Origin: Lachnospiraceae bacterium
GTDB taxonomy: Bacteria; Bacillota; Clostridia; Lachnospirales; Lachnospiraceae
Direction: 5' to 3'
Assembly (NCBI GenBank): GCA_017477005.1
Contig: JAFUXY010000015.1
Location: forward strand, 1-10,864
DNA length: 10,864 nt
This document shows positions 185 through 10,864 of the stretch, in pieces (position 1 is the first letter of the stretch; the number at the start of each line of letters is the position of its first letter). A program made the translations under genes and the position numbers. The notes under the pieces were generated by a model, which saw only the letters and a program-made list of their open reading frames with translations, was not told the origin of the DNA and searched no databases.

Positions 185-1447
185 ATGTTGTTTTTGACAT
201 CCTATAATGGCCAAATCCTTGGGCCGATTGCGCGGCTCTTGGGCGCCATTATGAACGCCATTTACGAATTTCTGACAAAGCAGTGCGGTATTACAAACGG
301 CAGTATCGCATTGTCTATCATTATTTTTACAATTTTTATTTATCTGTGTATGTTTCCACTGACGTATCGTCAGCAAAAATTTTCTGTTCTGACTCGCAAG
401 ATGCAGCCAGAGATGAAAGCGATTCAAAAAAAATACAAGGGTCGTCGAGATCAGGCTTCTGTTCAGGCGATGAACGAAGAGACGCAGGCGCTCTACGACA
501 AATATGGTACGAATCCGACAGGTAGCTGTGTGCAGATGGCGATTCAGATGCCGATTTTGTTTGCGCTGTACCGGGTATTTTACAATGTTCCGGCTTATTT
601 GTCGGGAGTCAAGGAAGTTTTTTCTCCTTTGGTGAGTGGCATCATGGAGACGGATAGCTTTCAGGATGCGATGACTTCCTTGCATGAGCAGGCCAATCTG
701 AGAAATGTAGTGGTTGATTTTTCCGTGAAGGACAACCAGGCCTTGTCGAATTATATAGTCGATGTGCTTTACAAACTCCCGGAGCAGGGATGGCAGTGGG
801 TAGCCGAAAAATTTCCGAGTCTTTCTACGGAAATTTCCGGTGTACAGGACAAACTGGCTCAGATCAATTATCTTGGACCGATCAATATTTCCGATACGCC
901 TTGGAATATGGCAAAGACAGGATTGTCGAGTCATGCGTGGGGTCTGATGGTCTGTGCAGTTTTGATCCCTCTTTTGGCGTATTTATCTCAGATGCTCAAT
1001 ATCATGCTGATGCCCACTCAGAGTGGCGGAGATGATGCGATGGCACAGCAGATGCGGACGATGAATCTGATGATGCCTTTGATGTCGGTATTTTTTACCT
1101 TTATTACACCGGCTGGTCTGGGTATTTATTGGATTATTGGCGCAGTGGTGCGTATTGTTCAGCAGTTCTTTTTGAACAAGCATTTTGAGAAGATCGATCT
1201 TGAGGCGATTATAGAAGCCAACAAGGAAAAAGCAGAAAAGAAGGCGGAGAAGAGAGGGATTCATCGCAGTCAGATTATGAATGCTGCGACAATGAATACG
1301 AGATCTTTTTCTGAGAAGGCCAAGGTTGGAACCGGCGATTCAGAAGCTTTGAATAAGGCGGCTGCGTTGAGAGACCAGGCCAAGCCGGGCACGCTGGCCG
1401 CGAAAGCAAATATGGTGAAACGATTCAATGAAAATGCGAAGGATTGA
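185..1447 (+). CDS. yidC: YidC/Oxa1/SpoIIIJ-family membrane protein insertase
   Basis: This encodes 420 residues of a YidC-type insertase, which moves proteins from ribosome or SecYEG into the cytoplasmic membrane. The 60KD_IMP core is clear: a membrane helix around residues 40-58 ending FPLT, the charged cytoplasmic hairpin (KMQPEMKAIQKKYKGRR, about 71-87), the NPTGSC and QMPILFALY segment (about 109-128), and further helices near 250-270 and 292-325 with the PAGLGIYW motif. It lacks the large periplasmic domain of Gram-negative YidC. Instead it carries a loop of about 110 residues between the second and third core helices, a feature I associate with clostridial YidC. The C-terminal 80 residues are very basic, fitting a ribosome-binding tail. 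No lipobox is visible. The position of the conserved groove arginine (E. coli R366) is Tyr53 here. jag follows after 35 bases. Confidence 0.95.
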   Translation: MLFLTSYNGQILGPIARLLGAIMNAIYEFLTKQCGITNGSIALSIIIFTIFIYLCMFPLTYRQQKFSVLTRKMQPEMKAIQKKYKGRRDQASVQAMNEETQALYDKYGTNPTGSCVQMAIQMPILFALYRVFYNVPAYLSGVKEVFSPLVSGIMETDSFQDAMTSLHEQANLRNVVVDFSVKDNQALSNYIVDVLYKLPEQGWQWVAEKFPSLSTEISGVQDKLAQINYLGPINISDTPWNMAKTGLSSHAWGLMVCAVLIPLLAYLSQMLNIMLMPTQSGGDDAMAQQMRTMNLMMPLMSVFFTFITPAGLGIYWIIGAVVRIVQQFFLNKHFEKIDLEAIIEANKEKAEKKAEKRGIHRSQIMNAATMNTRSFSEKAKVGTGDSEALNKAAALRDQAKPGTLAAKANMVKRFNENAKD

Positions 1448-3840: not shown

Positions 3841-4608
3841 CTATAAGGGATGTTTTGACGGCATACCGGCTTGGCGTGGGTATTTTTTCATGGTTGGCCT
3901 TGTCTTTTGGATTACAACGAGTGTTCTGTTGATATTTTCATCAACTTCCAAATTATTCGCTTTAGTTGATGGTAATGTAAACTCATAGGCAGTACATAGC
4001 TTTCCACCAAGTTCTTTGATTGCATGTTTGGCTTGATGAATTTCTTCTTTCGCGTCTCCTCCTTTATAGGAAATGAAATAACCTCCGGTTTGTACAAATG
4101 GAAGAGCGTATTCAGCCAGGGTCGAAAGATTGGCAACAGCTCGACTTAGACATAGATGATAGGTTTCTCGTTTTCCGTTTTGTCTGGCCAATTCTTCGGC
4201 TCTTGCATGAATGGGAGAAATATTTGTTATGGAAAGATCTGCCGCTGCTTCGTTTATAAAGGCAATGCGTTTTTTTAAGGAATCGAGGAGAGTGTAGCTT
4301 GCCTCTGGAAAAAACACAGCGAGTGGAATCCCCGGGAATCCGGCCCCTGTACCAAGGTCTAATATTTTGGCATTGCTTTGATAGAGAGAAGAAATACTAT
4401 TTTTTATAATGTCTTTTAATAAATAGACAGACAAGGAGTCTAATAGATGCTTGACTAAAAAGGCGTCAAAATCCGTAATCCTCGTCAAATTCACAGATTT
4501 ATTTTTTTCAATGAGTATTTCATAGAAGCGGTAAATTTTCCCGGCCTGTTCATCTGTACAATCCAGTCCTATGGTGGCGAGGACTTGCTGTATTTTTTTT
4601 TCGTACAT
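3841..4608 (-). CDS. rsmG: RsmG (GidB), 16S rRNA G527 N7-methyltransferase
   Basis: This encodes 255 residues, slightly longer than the typical 210-240. RsmG uses S-adenosylmethionine to methylate guanosine 527 (E. coli numbering) of 16S rRNA; its loss gives low-level streptomycin resistance in other bacteria. Visible motifs are NLTRITD and the HLLDSL helix (about 40-59), SAM motif I DLGTGAGFPGIPLA (84-97), LLDSLKKR (107-114), SRAVANLSTLAEYALPF (155-171), and the typical basic tail ending KYPRQAGMPSKHPL. The ribosome binding site is weak (AAGAGAA before the ATG). The gene lies opposite to mnmE and mnmG rather than downstream of mnmG as in many Firmicutes. It follows the CPBP protease gene on the same strand by 68 bases, with no visible terminator between, so the two may be cotranscribed. 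Confidence 0.95.
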   Translation of the reverse strand: MYEKKIQQVLATIGLDCTDEQAGKIYRFYEILIEKNKSVNLTRITDFDAFLVKHLLDSLSVYLLKDIIKNSISSLYQSNAKILDLGTGAGFPGIPLAVFFPEASYTLLDSLKKRIAFINEAAADLSITNISPIHARAEELARQNGKRETYHLCLSRAVANLSTLAEYALPFVQTGGYFISYKGGDAKEEIHQAKHAIKELGGKLCTAYEFTLPSTKANNLEVDENINRTLVVIQKTRPTMKKYPRQAGMPSKHPL

Positions 4609-4677
4609 AGTGATTCTCTTTCTTATTCCTCAATCGACGATGCTATCAATGCTGCCTTATTTGGATGTCTAATTTAT

Positions 4678-5349
4678 TCAACCTGTAAAATAGGACAAGA
4701 TCAGGGCCAAAGTATTGTAGCCAGCATGTACCAAAATATTCAGGATCAAATTTTGGCGGTTCATATAGAGACCTCCCAATACAAGTGCAATGAAAAAGTA
4801 AGCCAGGAAAGCACCAAGTGCAAACTCTACGGTATGAGCCAATGCAAATAAGGCGGATGAGATCAATATCATACAAATTCCCACGAATCCCTTTCGATTT
4901 TTGATCATAGCACATCGAAAAACCGATTCCTCTGTGATTGGCGCTGCAATGACGGCCATATAGGTTGTGAAATAAAAATTGGTGTCCTTCAGATGATTCA
5001 AATAGGTTTGATTGGTGGTAGTAGAAGAGTGGTCAATTTGTTGAATAAAGATTCCTCCAATAATCGACGCACCATATACCATCAAAATGAGCGGAATGAC
5101 CATAGCTAGTAGCTGTCCCATTCCCTGTATGTCCGTTGCTATTTTTTTGTGGTAATAAATAATCGAAAAGAGTGGAAGAAAAAAATAGATGAACATATTG
5201 ATATACAATGCGATTACATTTTCCGGAAGGGAAGGGATGAGTCCGTTTTTTGACAAAAGCATCAGCCCCATAGCGATAGGATAGGGCAGTATAATAGAAG
5301 TCAGTATATAAATAACGATAATCGGGATGGATTTTGGTTGTGTATTCAT
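4678..5349 (-). CDS. CPBP family intramembrane glutamic endopeptidase
   Basis: This encodes 223 residues of a hydrophobic, multi-helix membrane protein with the CPBP (Abi/Rce1-like, PF02517) signature in its C-terminal half: EExxxR at Glu140-Glu141-Arg145, FxxxH at Phe168-His172, and NxxxHxxxN at Asn204-His208-Asn212. The family includes Rce1 and bacterial enzymes linked to bacteriocin self-immunity, but the substrate here cannot be told. About six or seven membrane helices are likely. The ATG at 5349 is preferred: AGGAAAG lies six bases upstream and a reverse-strand promoter would start transcription near 5392. The frame is open to an ATG at 5391, but that codon has no binding site and would sit at the transcript's first bases. 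It is transcribed divergently from the 55-aa gene and heads toward rsmG. Confidence 0.88.
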   Translation of the reverse strand: MNTQPKSIPIIVIYILTSIILPYPIAMGLMLLSKNGLIPSLPENVIALYINMFIYFFLPLFSIIYYHKKIATDIQGMGQLLAMVIPLILMVYGASIIGGIFIQQIDHSSTTTNQTYLNHLKDTNFYFTTYMAVIAAPITEESVFRCAMIKNRKGFVGICMILISSALFALAHTVEFALGAFLAYFFIALVLGGLYMNRQNLILNILVHAGYNTLALILSYFTG

Positions 5350-5355
5350 AGATCG

Positions 5356-5362
5356 CTTTCCT
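5356..5362 (-). promoter_or_regulatory. Ribosome binding site of the CPBP gene
   Basis: Read on the reverse strand, AGGAAAG ends six bases before the ATG at 5349. It decides the start in favour of this ATG over the in-frame ATG at 5391. Confidence 0.6.
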
Positions 5363-5398
5363 GATTCGAGTTTTGTTTTAATATTAAACATCTAACGT

Positions 5399-7630: not shown

Positions 7631-7646
7631 ACAAAATATTGTAGTA

Positions 7647-7652
7647 GGGGGG
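7647..7652 (+). promoter_or_regulatory. Ribosome binding site selecting a TTG start
   Basis: A GGGGGG run followed by AAG lies six bases before TTG 7659. It is the only good site in the short space after mnmG, and no ATG or GTG in this frame is near. Confidence 0.6.
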
Positions 7653-7658
7653 AAGAAT

Positions 7659-8165
7659 TTGGTAGCAGAATATTTGAAAAAAGAGCGGAAAAAGTTTGAT
7701 GCAATTGCGAAAAAAAATCGTGATGAGATTTCGCAGTTGGAGACAAAATTAATTGAAAATGAAAAATTTACTTCTTTATTGGAAGCGGAAACACAGAAAG
7801 TATTTCGTGATTTTACGCCTAGAGATGTAGACAACAAAAATCGAAAGCAGATTAATCAATTAAAGCAAGATAGAGAAAAATTGTTAAATCGAAAAAATAC
7901 TCTTCAGGATCAATTGGATGAGGCTAATGCGGCTTTGAAGGAATTGAGAGCTTCGATCACCGAAGTAAAGGATCTGGAAATGCAGGCGGCTGATTCTCGC
8001 TGGTTCGAAGAAAATGTATATGATGCGGGAGAGAGCAATGAAGAGCCATCGGATGAATCCTTGGTCAGTGGAAAAGCCGCCGAGCGGTTGAAAGGTATTT
8101 TGGAATATTTAATCGAAGATCCTGCTCGTGCCAAAGAAGAGCTGGAAAAGATGATTCGTATTTGA
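7659..8165 (+). CDS. Coiled-coil protein of unknown function, 168 aa
   Basis: This gene starts 28 bases after the mnmG stop, probably in the same operon. The frame is open back into mnmG, but that part is out-of-frame mnmG sequence; the TTG at 7659 with its G-rich binding site is the likely start. The product is highly charged (Lys/Glu/Gln). Residues about 5-65 and 70-110 have heptad-like spacing typical of two coiled-coil helices (for example KQINQLKQDREKLLNRK). An acidic spacer (about 122-138) follows, then a short helix with AAERLKGILEYLIEDPARAK. No membrane segment, signal peptide or catalytic motif is visible. The layout recalls cytosolic coiled-coil input regions of DegS-type kinases, but there is no kinase domain. 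I do not recognise it. Confidence 0.75.
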   Translation: MVAEYLKKERKKFDAIAKKNRDEISQLETKLIENEKFTSLLEAETQKVFRDFTPRDVDNKNRKQINQLKQDREKLLNRKNTLQDQLDEANAALKELRASITEVKDLEMQAADSRWFEENVYDAGESNEEPSDESLVSGKAAERLKGILEYLIEDPARAKEELEKMIRI

Positions 8166-8411: not shown

Positions 8412-10864
8412 TTATGATTTTTTTGTCTGACTGAATAATTGGCTGTTTATCACATTTTCGCACTTTTCATTTACAATCATGATATTGCTGTAGGTTTCTA
8501 TGAAGTCGTATTTTTCACATACACGCCGCAACTGAGCGTACAATGCTCGTTCTACGGGTGGTCTGTCTATTTCGTGGCAAAACGCTACGACTCGAATGGT
8601 AATAAAATCCTGATTTACTCCTATCAAATTTCGAAATTCCATATCCAGTATCTGAGGTATTTTTTCGGAAAAATGGATCATCTCTTTTTTAATGGTTTCT
8701 TCCACTTTATCAAATTCTACATAGGAATGGAGCTGGAAATCGCAGGTAGCAAGCGACACAAAGTTCGAAGCATTGATAATATTCCTCATTTCTGAATTAT
8801 TGACTATTTTTACATTTTGATCATCGTCTTTTAATTTTGTGGTTCTAAGTCCTATGTCAGTTACCATCCCGCGGAATCCAGATGAATCAAACACGATCTC
8901 GCCTACGCGGTAGCTTCCTTCAAAAATAATGAACAGTCCTGCCAACAAATCCGTCATCAACGATTGAGCTCCGAAACCGATTACGGCTGTCAAAATTCCT
9001 GCCGATGCGAGCAAGGTGCCAGGCCGTACGCCTATCTCGGTCAGGCAAATGTACAAGGTCATCATCAATGTGGCATATTTAGTGAGGCTCTGCAGTAGCC
9101 TACAAATGGTAGCATTTTTCGAATTCATAGATTTTGCGATATATTTGAGCAAACTGCTGATGATGGTTTCGATTGTTGTGTTAAATACGATGATGATGAA
9201 GCATTTCGCAATGGCGATATTGGTCAATCCCTTTTCCCAGTTGTTTTCCACGATATATTTAATGATGAATAAACGATCTTTGTTTATCAGATACAATATG
9301 ATCAAAGACACACCAATGATCAGATAAATCGTCTTGAATAAAGTCGAAAAGTTTTCTTCAGATGTAGCTTGTTTTGTTTCGTAAATTTTTATTTTGATAT
9401 TTTTCGGTTTTTCAGCGAGCACCACTTTGAAATACAAAAATGGAAATAATAGGCAGGTAATGAAAAAGAAAATGAATATTCCATATATAAACAAAGTAAT
9501 ATAAATTACATCTGTTCCATAGTCTGCTTCTGTCAGATAAAACACAGCGTATTTATCGTTCATGGCGCATTTTCCATAATATTTTTGATCAAAGACATTG
9601 ACATATCCAATATAATTATTGTAGATCTTGGAATCAGGAATGCCGACCTCATTTGGATCCATTTTGATCATGCTTTCATCTGATGCATAGAATATTTTGT
9701 CTGTGTCTCGGTTGATCGCAATGAGCATATTCATAGAAGCGTTGAATCTTCTAAGCGTATTGGTGGTTTTCAAGCTCGTTGTCGATTTTCTATATTTTGA
9801 AGGCAATACAGTCAATATGAGTACGCCATCCTGTTTCCCTTCTTTGTCAAAAAGTCGAATGCCAATTTTTTGATCGTATTGTGTCGTAAGTTCATTCTCC
9901 ATTGGCTGTTGTATATAGAAATCAACACCGTGCAAGATTCTCGAAAAATCGTAGGAACGATCATTTTCATTTTTGGTATTGATCGACGTGTCTTTTAGGT
10001 CAGAATCGGTTTCAACCTGTTTTCCATCCATATTGTAGACGACCATGTATTCAATATTGAGTGCATTACTCAATTGTTTCATATCCGTTTTGTTTCGTAG
10101 CTCTGGTTTTCTTGAGAGAATGGTTGATGCTGTTTTGGCAATCGTAACAAATCGACTGTTGTATTCTTTTTCATAGTTGTCTAATGTGGTTTCGTTTTCT
10201 GTGATCGTATTGATAATATGATCGGCCTTGTAGGAATCGGAATCGGCTTGTTCATATTGAAAAGTCAATATATTCAAAAAGCCAGTCATGATCATGATGG
10301 CGATTGATCCGCAAATGGACAATACAGCGAGTTGTCTCCAGGTTCCTTTGAGCTGCGAATCTCTTTCTTCGTCGATATTGCTGCTTCTTTCCTTTACAAT
10401 GCAAACAACGTAGCCTGTTATCAAAATAATTAAAACAAATATTGAGAATAGACAAGGATGCAGTGATTGAACGATTTTTCTTACAAATATGTCGTTGGTG
10501 ACAGCCAAGATTAAATATACATTTTGGCTTTTTACATATCTTGTACTTCCAAAATAAATTTGATCTTTTACTTTGAAGAACGTGCTTTGTCCGTCTAAGA
10601 ATAAATCGGACGAAAAGCCATAGGCTAATGCATTTTTTCCTAAGATGTCCTCTTTATTGTCTATATCTGCATAATATATTTGATAATTATTTCTGGATAC
10701 AACGAACGTAGTGATATCGGAATTGCTGTTGATATTGTCGATTATTTTTTCCCATGATATGGATGATTTGACTATGTCATAATATTCTTTTGGATTGATT
10801 TCTATGACAGCTTCTCGATCCTCATCGATTTTTGCCGCATAATAGAATAATTCTTTTCCTTTGT
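8412..10864 (-). CDS. Sensor-fused MscS-type mechanosensitive channel (5' end outside window)
   Basis: The frame runs without a stop from the window edge to TAA at 8412-8414, so at least 816 residues are visible. The TTG at 10506-10508 is only an internal codon, because the upstream codons continue a sensible protein. Numbering from the first full codon: an extracytoplasmic sensor end (1-133), helix TM1 (134-156), a charged cytoplasmic loop, TM2 (178-199), a second extracytoplasmic module (about 202-450), TM3 (451-478), TM4 (511-526), TM5 (549-572), TM6 (597-610), and an MscS pore helix (617-648, with AGILTAVIGFGAQSL and FEGSYRVGEIV). The MscS beta domain and alpha/beta C-terminus follow. The sensors look dCache-like and repeated. 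Alternating topology puts both sensors outside and the MscS tail in the cytoplasm. MscS channels open under membrane tension and release osmolytes; sensing of a small ligand is inferred. Confidence 0.88.
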   Translation of the reverse strand, partial: KGKELFYYAAKIDEDREAVIEINPKEYYDIVKSSISWEKIIDNINSNSDITTFVVSRNNYQIYYADIDNKEDILGKNALAYGFSSDLFLDGQSTFFKVKDQIYFGSTRYVKSQNVYLILAVTNDIFVRKIVQSLHPCLFSIFVLIILITGYVVCIVKERSSNIDEERDSQLKGTWRQLAVLSICGSIAIMIMTGFLNILTFQYEQADSDSYKADHIINTITENETTLDNYEKEYNSRFVTIAKTASTILSRKPELRNKTDMKQLSNALNIEYMVVYNMDGKQVETDSDLKDTSINTKNENDRSYDFSRILHGVDFYIQQPMENELTTQYDQKIGIRLFDKEGKQDGVLILTVLPSKYRKSTTSLKTTNTLRRFNASMNMLIAINRDTDKIFYASDESMIKMDPNEVGIPDSKIYNNYIGYVNVFDQKYYGKCAMNDKYAVFYLTEADYGTDVIYITLFIYGIFIFFFITCLLFPFLYFKVVLAEKPKNIKIKIYETKQATSEENFSTLFKTIYLIIGVSLIILYLINKDRLFIIKYIVENNWEKGLTNIAIAKCFIIIVFNTTIETIISSLLKYIAKSMNSKNATICRLLQSLTKYATLMMTLYICLTEIGVRPGTLLASAGILTAVIGFGAQSLMTDLLAGLFIIFEGSYRVGEIVFDSSGFRGMVTDIGLRTTKLKDDDQNVKIVNNSEMRNIINASNFVSLATCDFQLHSYVEFDKVEETIKKEMIHFSEKIPQILDMEFRNLIGVNQDFITIRVVAFCHEIDRPPVERALYAQLRRVCEKYDFIETYSNIMIVNEKCENVINSQLFSQTKKS

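Follow-up and report, generated by a model that had tools for sequence, protein, structure and literature searches.

A conserved family of MscS-type channels with tandem dCache-like sensor modules

MscS channels are widespread tension valves, and the usual outputs of dCache receptors are chemoreceptor, kinase or enzyme domains. In prokaryotes, Cache is described as the largest of the extracellular sensor superfamilies (PMC4822843). What, then, does a protein do that carries such sensors in front of an MscS pore? The question is raised by a gene at one end of contig JAFUXY010000015.1 of a Lachnospiraceae bacterium (assembly GCA_017477005.1). The whole contig, designated C17 and 10,864 bases long, is the stretch of DNA that was analyzed and is called the window below. 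Its source is a fragmented metagenome-assembled genome (MAG) of 2.6 Mb in 538 contigs, 76% complete. The sensor-MscS fusion encoded in it is a conserved family.

The fusion and its distribution

The channel gene occupies positions 8412..10862 of the minus strand as one stop-free frame of 816 codons. Its 5' end is open because the contig ends at base 10864; this end and the gene's own upstream region lie beyond the contig. The encoded protein comprises the membrane-proximal half of one sensor module (sensor 1), a complete second module (sensor 2) and the MscS pore, beta and C-terminal part. A search of the window's genome for the missing 5' end, made with the profile of the family, returned only the window, a paralogue on contig C226 and a shorter MscS frame.

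The initial annotation claimed a C-terminal MscS pore, beta domain and C-terminal domain, and this claim is confirmed. The window protein matches the Pfam families PF21088 (residues 593-633, 32.3 bits with a cut-off of 23.1) and PF00924 (residues 635-699, 41.9 bits with a cut-off of 20.2). Among sequences of solved structures, those of MscS channels come closest (3t9n, E 1.8e-17), and the core has the MscS fold that defines the superfamily. Two membrane helices corresponding to MscS TM1 and TM2 (residues 548-609; 9036..9221, minus strand, as are all features of the gene) include a hydrophobic span at 546-572 and a helix predicted by AF2 at 581-609; MscS chains align from about residue 546. The pore-lining helix TM3 (residues 614-648; 8919..9023) was placed by the two Pfam matches and by alignment to the solved MscS structures 3t9n and 3udc, and a hydrophobic span covers residues 610-646. 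The cytoplasmic beta and C-terminal alpha/beta domains follow (residues 649-785; 8508..8918); the VIA match to 3udc_A extends over 539..814. In a 62-row alignment the invariant columns of the pore and vestibule are G622, G631, D638, G642, G654, R673, T675 and N689. Y596 and W542 are invariant as well, the latter also in 25 of 25 sequences. W542 is the center of a conserved motif found by alignment (residues 536-549; 9216..9257) that is predicted to lie outside the cell. Ahead of it, AF2 and hydrophobicity place the first of the membrane helices added to the channel part (residues 508-526; 9285..9341).

Affiliation with particular large or ligand-gated MscS homologues was rejected. The protein scores 23.4 bits with the NCBIfam equivalog model of MscK (cut-off 991) and 31.9 bits with that of MscM (cut-off 809). 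The cyclic-nucleotide-binding domain of bCNG channels is absent from the Pfam matches of the window protein and from the families listed for 48 members. No additional cytoplasmic output domain was found by Pfam in the same proteins.

A scan of named genomes yielded 66 loci, in each of which the match extends from sensor 2 to the membrane helices of MscS. This number is a lower bound, because the scan used two short peptide patterns. In 60 of the 66 loci the stop-to-stop frame has 886-1161 amino acids (aa), and full-length relatives have about 950-1050 residues. The remaining six are shorter frames (L078, 573 aa; L090, 730 aa; L125, 599 aa; L104, 835 aa) or run off the contig end (L118, L120). 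Two of the loci, L077 and L091, come from one MAG, and L096 comes from the complete genome of Lachnospiraceae bacterium CE91-St61. The taxa include Lachnospiraceae, rabbit Oscillospiraceae MAGs, Mediterraneibacter, Dorea, Butyrivibrio, Oribacterium and Pullichristensenella; many carriers are gut and rumen Clostridia.

Profile searches in other genome sets gave the following picture. Among 61 genomes (the window's own and 60 relatives), 42 have a match at E 0.001, mostly to MscS frames of ordinary length; sensor and MscS were matched in one frame in five of them (G003, G004, G005, G031 and G038), besides the window's own genome with its second copy on C226. The sensor-2 profile matches 72 of 397 genomes of the same taxonomic family at E 1e-6. 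At least 18 of these carry a sensor-MscS frame, as judged from loci that were read or aligned (L046 and L072 are cut by contig ends), and many weaker matches belong to proteins with other outputs. When 398 genomes sampled evenly across the phylum were searched, scoring no more than two candidates in each, the fused form was found at E 1e-60 only in the window's genome and in G816, where a frame of 1100 aa matches the profile from sensor 1 to MscS. The window protein alone as a query found no relative in the viral_contigs and genome_contigs sets.

Alignments A7 and A8 include 61 of the 66 loci and the window; three short frames (L078, L090, L125), L104 and L134 were left out. A9 was built from 35 of 61 and A10 from 36 of 62 available stretches, and A12 from 47 relatives and the window. 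The tree has 79 rows; six duplicates, three loci that share a contig with a named locus, and the three short frames had been removed. Long branches of unsure placement lead to the window, L029, L045, L061, L064 and L065; the window lies outside both main clades.

Several copies of the gene are interrupted. In the paralogue on C226 (L024, 4825-7917) an in-frame TAA separates the two sensor modules. A relative in G031 (L028, 3467-6541, minus strand) has an in-frame stop within sensor 1. The frame of a relative of the same genus (L025, 2872-5508, and L073) ends early and does not contain the MscS C-terminal domain.

The sensor modules

Two extracytoplasmic modules had been claimed for this protein. 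Full-length relatives indeed carry two mutually homologous sensor modules in tandem, but the window itself holds only half of the first. This part of sensor 1 (residues 1-122; 10497..10862) corresponds in alignments to the latter half of sensor 1 in relatives that have this module complete, and AF2 predicts strands in it at 50-56, 61-65, 93-98, 101-110 and 115-122, before a membrane helix (residues 138-156; 10395..10451) supported by hydrophobicity and an AF2 helix at 123-160. A further membrane helix precedes sensor 2 (residues 178-196; 10275..10331; AF2 and hydrophobicity) and is a portion of an 85-residue helix at 167-251.

Sensor 2 is a complete dCache-like module (residues 197-448; 9519..10274). 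In AF2 models of the window's sensor 2 and of L096 we observed the arrangement typical of dCache, i.e., a long helix followed by a pair of PAS-like subdomains, with membrane helices on either side, and the predicted fold of the window's sensor 2 matches solved dCache receptors over approximately 203..447 by Foldseek/VIA. The PAS-like alpha/beta fold, the presence of which had been set as a test of the annotation, is thus predicted in the external region. Its membrane-distal subdomain (residues 258-352; 9807..10091) contains the invariant residues G280, T285, F306, L310, Q331, G334 and G346; the membrane-proximal one (residues 366-445; 9528..9767) was delimited by AF2. A membrane helix follows (residues 455-473; 9444..9500; AF2 and hydrophobicity). 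In L096 both modules are dCache-like by predicted secondary structure, and its sensor 2 also by fold search.

The corresponding stretch of relatives matches dCache_1 (PF02743), which is detected in 33 of 48 members at E 0.001. The gathering score of this family is 45 bits. It is passed by L074 (49.7 bits, E 4.7e-13, residues 370-574, i.e., the second module, with PF00924 in the same protein); the remaining scores seen in relatives are 20.7-40.9 bits, most relatives are below the cut-off, and the window protein has no match. The Cache label of the initial annotation is therefore upheld by the predicted fold and by the matches of relatives, but not by any sequence match of the window protein itself. 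The two strings quoted for that label are residues 273-288 and 335-350; both belong to the second module and none to the first.

Relatives of the sensor module occur in front of other outputs. Eight Pfam-scanned non-channel proteins with it are four chemoreceptors (MCP), two GGDEF proteins, one hybrid histidine kinase and one SpoIIE protein. The protein L071 (1834-4245) combines 5TM-5TMR_LYT, HAMP and SpoIIE phosphatase domains, and between them the sensor-2 profile matches weakly.

As for the topology, we predict eight membrane helices, counting the missing first one, and eight are likewise predicted in full-length relatives. Both sensors and the loop with W542 would be outside and the beta domain inside. 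The AF2 models have pTM of 0.60-0.65, so the relative placement of domains should not be relied on.

Neighboring genes

A gene of a solute-binding protein (SBP) was detected by tblastn upstream of the channel in 34 of 66 loci, or 34 of the 62 assessable ones; the queries were proteins adjoining 14 loci, and four loci hold less than 600 bases upstream. Of these SBP genes, 33 are on the same strand as the channel and end within 300 bases of its frame. In 31 of the 34, the distance between the SBP stop codon and an in-frame start of the channel is -4 to 16 bases, often with a GGAGG-like stretch in this interval. The three exceptions are L078, where the channel frame is interrupted near its start, L135, where the first listed start is 138 bases downstream, and L081, where the tblastn match of the SBP ends 4 bases before the channel frame.

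All five scanned partners contain SBP_bac_3 (PF00497; 96.4-103.7 bits with a cut-off of 26.4), and partner SBPs also match PF10613 below its cut-off. For the SBP of L096, the one compared with NCBIfam, the best model is an aspartate/glutamate-binding one, with 112.8 bits far below its cut-off of 373. A crude pattern revealed a lipobox-like motif in nine of 14 SBPs checked. No ABC permease domain was found among ten flanking proteins from six loci; one of the flanking proteins (L105, downstream) is an FHA-ABC ATPase, and other neighbors vary.

The control set consisted of 38 loci. Four of them turned out to be family members (L008, L009, L010 and L046), leaving 34, of which 15 are MscS loci (frames of 200-640 aa) and 19 encode other proteins with the sensor module, including the eight scanned with Pfam. 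An SBP match was found in one of the 34, mostly with flanks of 1.5 kb, and it was not adjacent. In the window's own genome, SBP matches are located on contigs C246, C262 and C60. Those on C246 and C262 look like ordinary SBP genes, the latter beside an ABC ATPase frame.

Aquaporin genes are nearby in ten of the 66 loci, and PF00230 was found in both of those scanned. In seven loci the aquaporin gene is just upstream of the SBP gene. In L096 it directly follows the channel, and in L101 and L088 it is found some 1.2 kb downstream; L079 has a short partial match. No aquaporin was found in the 38 control loci. The seven upstream cases belong to one tree lineage and are thus weak evidence. In the clade without a binding protein, an uncharacterized protein of about 220 aa recurs beside the channel (L084, L102, L131) and is encoded by the second gene after the channel in L128.

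Two other observations concern the rest of the window. The usual gene order is mnmE-mnmG-rsmG; in the window, rsmG (GidB) and a CPBP/Rce1-like protease gene, identified by their Pfam domains, are inverted between mnmE and mnmG (3844-5391, minus strand). A frame after mnmG (7641-8162, plus strand) appears coiled-coil-like by eye and has no Pfam match at E 1e-5.

What the sensors may do for the channel

Our proposal, held with moderate confidence as the most likely reading, is that an extracellular small molecule acts through the dCache modules to tune the tension at which the MscS channel opens, and that in one clade the binding protein serves as its carrier. By homology, the channel would be a heptamer, its sensors forming an outer crown and its MscS vestibule lying on the inner side. 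A small molecule would most likely bind a sensor directly or, in relatives that have one, via the co-encoded amino-acid-type binding protein; the bound state might then shift the membrane helices adjoining the sensors, and the tension needed for pore opening would be raised or lowered, whichever the direction. Solute release would thereby be matched to outside conditions. Gating or tuning by an external ligand gains support from the SBP gene upstream in about half of the loci and from the eight scanned proteins in which relatives of the sensor module are joined to chemoreceptor, GGDEF, histidine kinase or SpoIIE outputs.

A number of observations weigh against the proposal. The window protein has no match to Cache models of Pfam with E up to 1, and a sequence search of the PDB with both sensor profiles gave no matches. 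The arrangement of domains is unsure in the AF2 model (pTM 0.60). In L096 a cytoplasmic linker, modelled with low confidence, lies between the channel helices and the helix that ends the sensor region, and it is not obvious how the two would be coupled mechanically. On the tree the SBP label occurs in clusters (three changes compared with a shuffled mean of 26.3); hence the SBP gene has mostly been inherited, and the 34 cases do not count as independent. An SBP match was not found in 28 of the 62 assessable loci; the window's relative L073 and the paralogue on C226 are among those with no match in the available flanks.

The dCache-like modules could instead be purely mechanical, a spacer or tether that senses turgor or distance to the wall and sets the tension threshold with no small-molecule ligand. 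The MscS-type output, osmotic by ancestry, and the aquaporin genes close to some of the loci are consistent with such a role, but in related genomes chemoreceptor and other signal domains follow modules akin to this one, and the tight pairing with an SBP gene points to a solute signal; we regard a purely mechanical role as unlikely. The amino-acid type of the partner SBP, with the aspartate/glutamate-binding model as the best, far below its cut-off, in L096, would also fit a putative regulated export valve for amino acids or other osmolytes, with the binding protein and sensors reporting the outside concentration as feedback. The lack of an ABC permease domain among the ten neighboring proteins (with the one FHA-ABC ATPase in L105) argues in the same direction, but the window's lineage and one whole clade show no SBP partner, and the probability of this scheme appears low.

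The long added N-terminal parts might suggest that the protein is a non-conducting receptor, its MscS part being an oligomeric scaffold that signals through the cytoplasmic vestibule. This is improbable to a high degree: judging by the invariant columns, few parts are conserved as well as the pore helix and vestibule, and Pfam reveals no extra cytoplasmic output domain. Finally, the fusion could be a chimeric assembly or two genes run together. The MAG is fragmented, the contig end truncates the gene, and two relatives have in-frame stops, yet 60 of 66 other loci, including L096 of the complete genome, keep the same order in one stop-to-stop frame. Frameshift, two-gene artefact and assembly fusion are thereby ruled out for practical purposes, and the finding of two separate genes, named initially as what would refute the fusion, is contradicted.

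The ligand-tuned channel proposed here resembles several known systems and is distinct from each. Ionotropic glutamate receptors and bacterial GluR0 pair a ligand domain of SBP_bac_3 type with a channel; here, in contrast, the SBP is a separate gene, the pore is different, and Cache modules are in between. The ligand domain of bCNG channels is cytosolic and C-terminal, whereas no such C-terminal domain was found here by Pfam. The dCache receptors (Mlp24, Tlp3, PctA-C, TlpC, PscC and sporulation kinase D) share with the family the long first helix, two PAS-like subdomains and flanking membrane helices, but here the output is a channel and two modules stand in tandem. The pore helix, beta domain and C-terminal domain are those of small MscS (2vv5, 3t9n, 3udc); the latter, however, have about 280-290 residues and three membrane helices (the count is from PMC4560390), compared with about 950-1050 residues, eight predicted helices and two sensor modules here. 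The large MscS homologue MscK (KefA) of E. coli has an N-terminal periplasmic domain and is gated by tension together with an external ion (PMC9653487). Unlike the family, it has a periplasmic domain of about 500 residues and 11 membrane helices, and the available excerpts of the same paper contain no mention of a Cache fold for it. Two double-Cache domains are associated with an ion channel in alpha2delta subunits of animal calcium channels (PMC9901441, PMC4822843), but these are separate auxiliary subunits of an unrelated channel, whereas here the sensors are fused to MscS. The ion-channel output class of Cache in PMC4822843 is defined via VWA_N and VGCC_alpha2, i.e., is of the alpha2delta type.

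Members of the MscS superfamily named as ligand-gated are the bCNG channels, and other subfamilies are noted that possess domains for ligand binding or extensive extracellular loops (PMC4560390). Given these subfamilies and the dual gating of MscK (PMC9653487), an MscS channel with an added sensor is already a known kind. A search for terms in the text of two gut-sensor papers found no mention of MscS. Literature searches, mostly not covering subscription papers, returned no description of a Cache-MscS fusion or of its pairing with an SBP, only background or unrelated work, and so do not establish absence from print.

A bolder version of the proposal, possible but doubtful, concerns the large clade with the gene pair. 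There, a ligand-loaded amino-acid-type binding protein would dock on the tandem dCache crown and open or close the MscS pore. Such a two-gene channel of gut Clostridia, gated by an extracellular ligand, would have arisen independently of glutamate receptors, an osmotic safety valve having been turned into a chemically gated channel.

If the proposed tuning by an external ligand is true, some bacteria link external chemistry directly to the flow of ions or osmolytes, with neither a phosphorelay nor a second messenger. The family also allows direct tests of the roles that large MscS homologues have beyond osmotic rescue.
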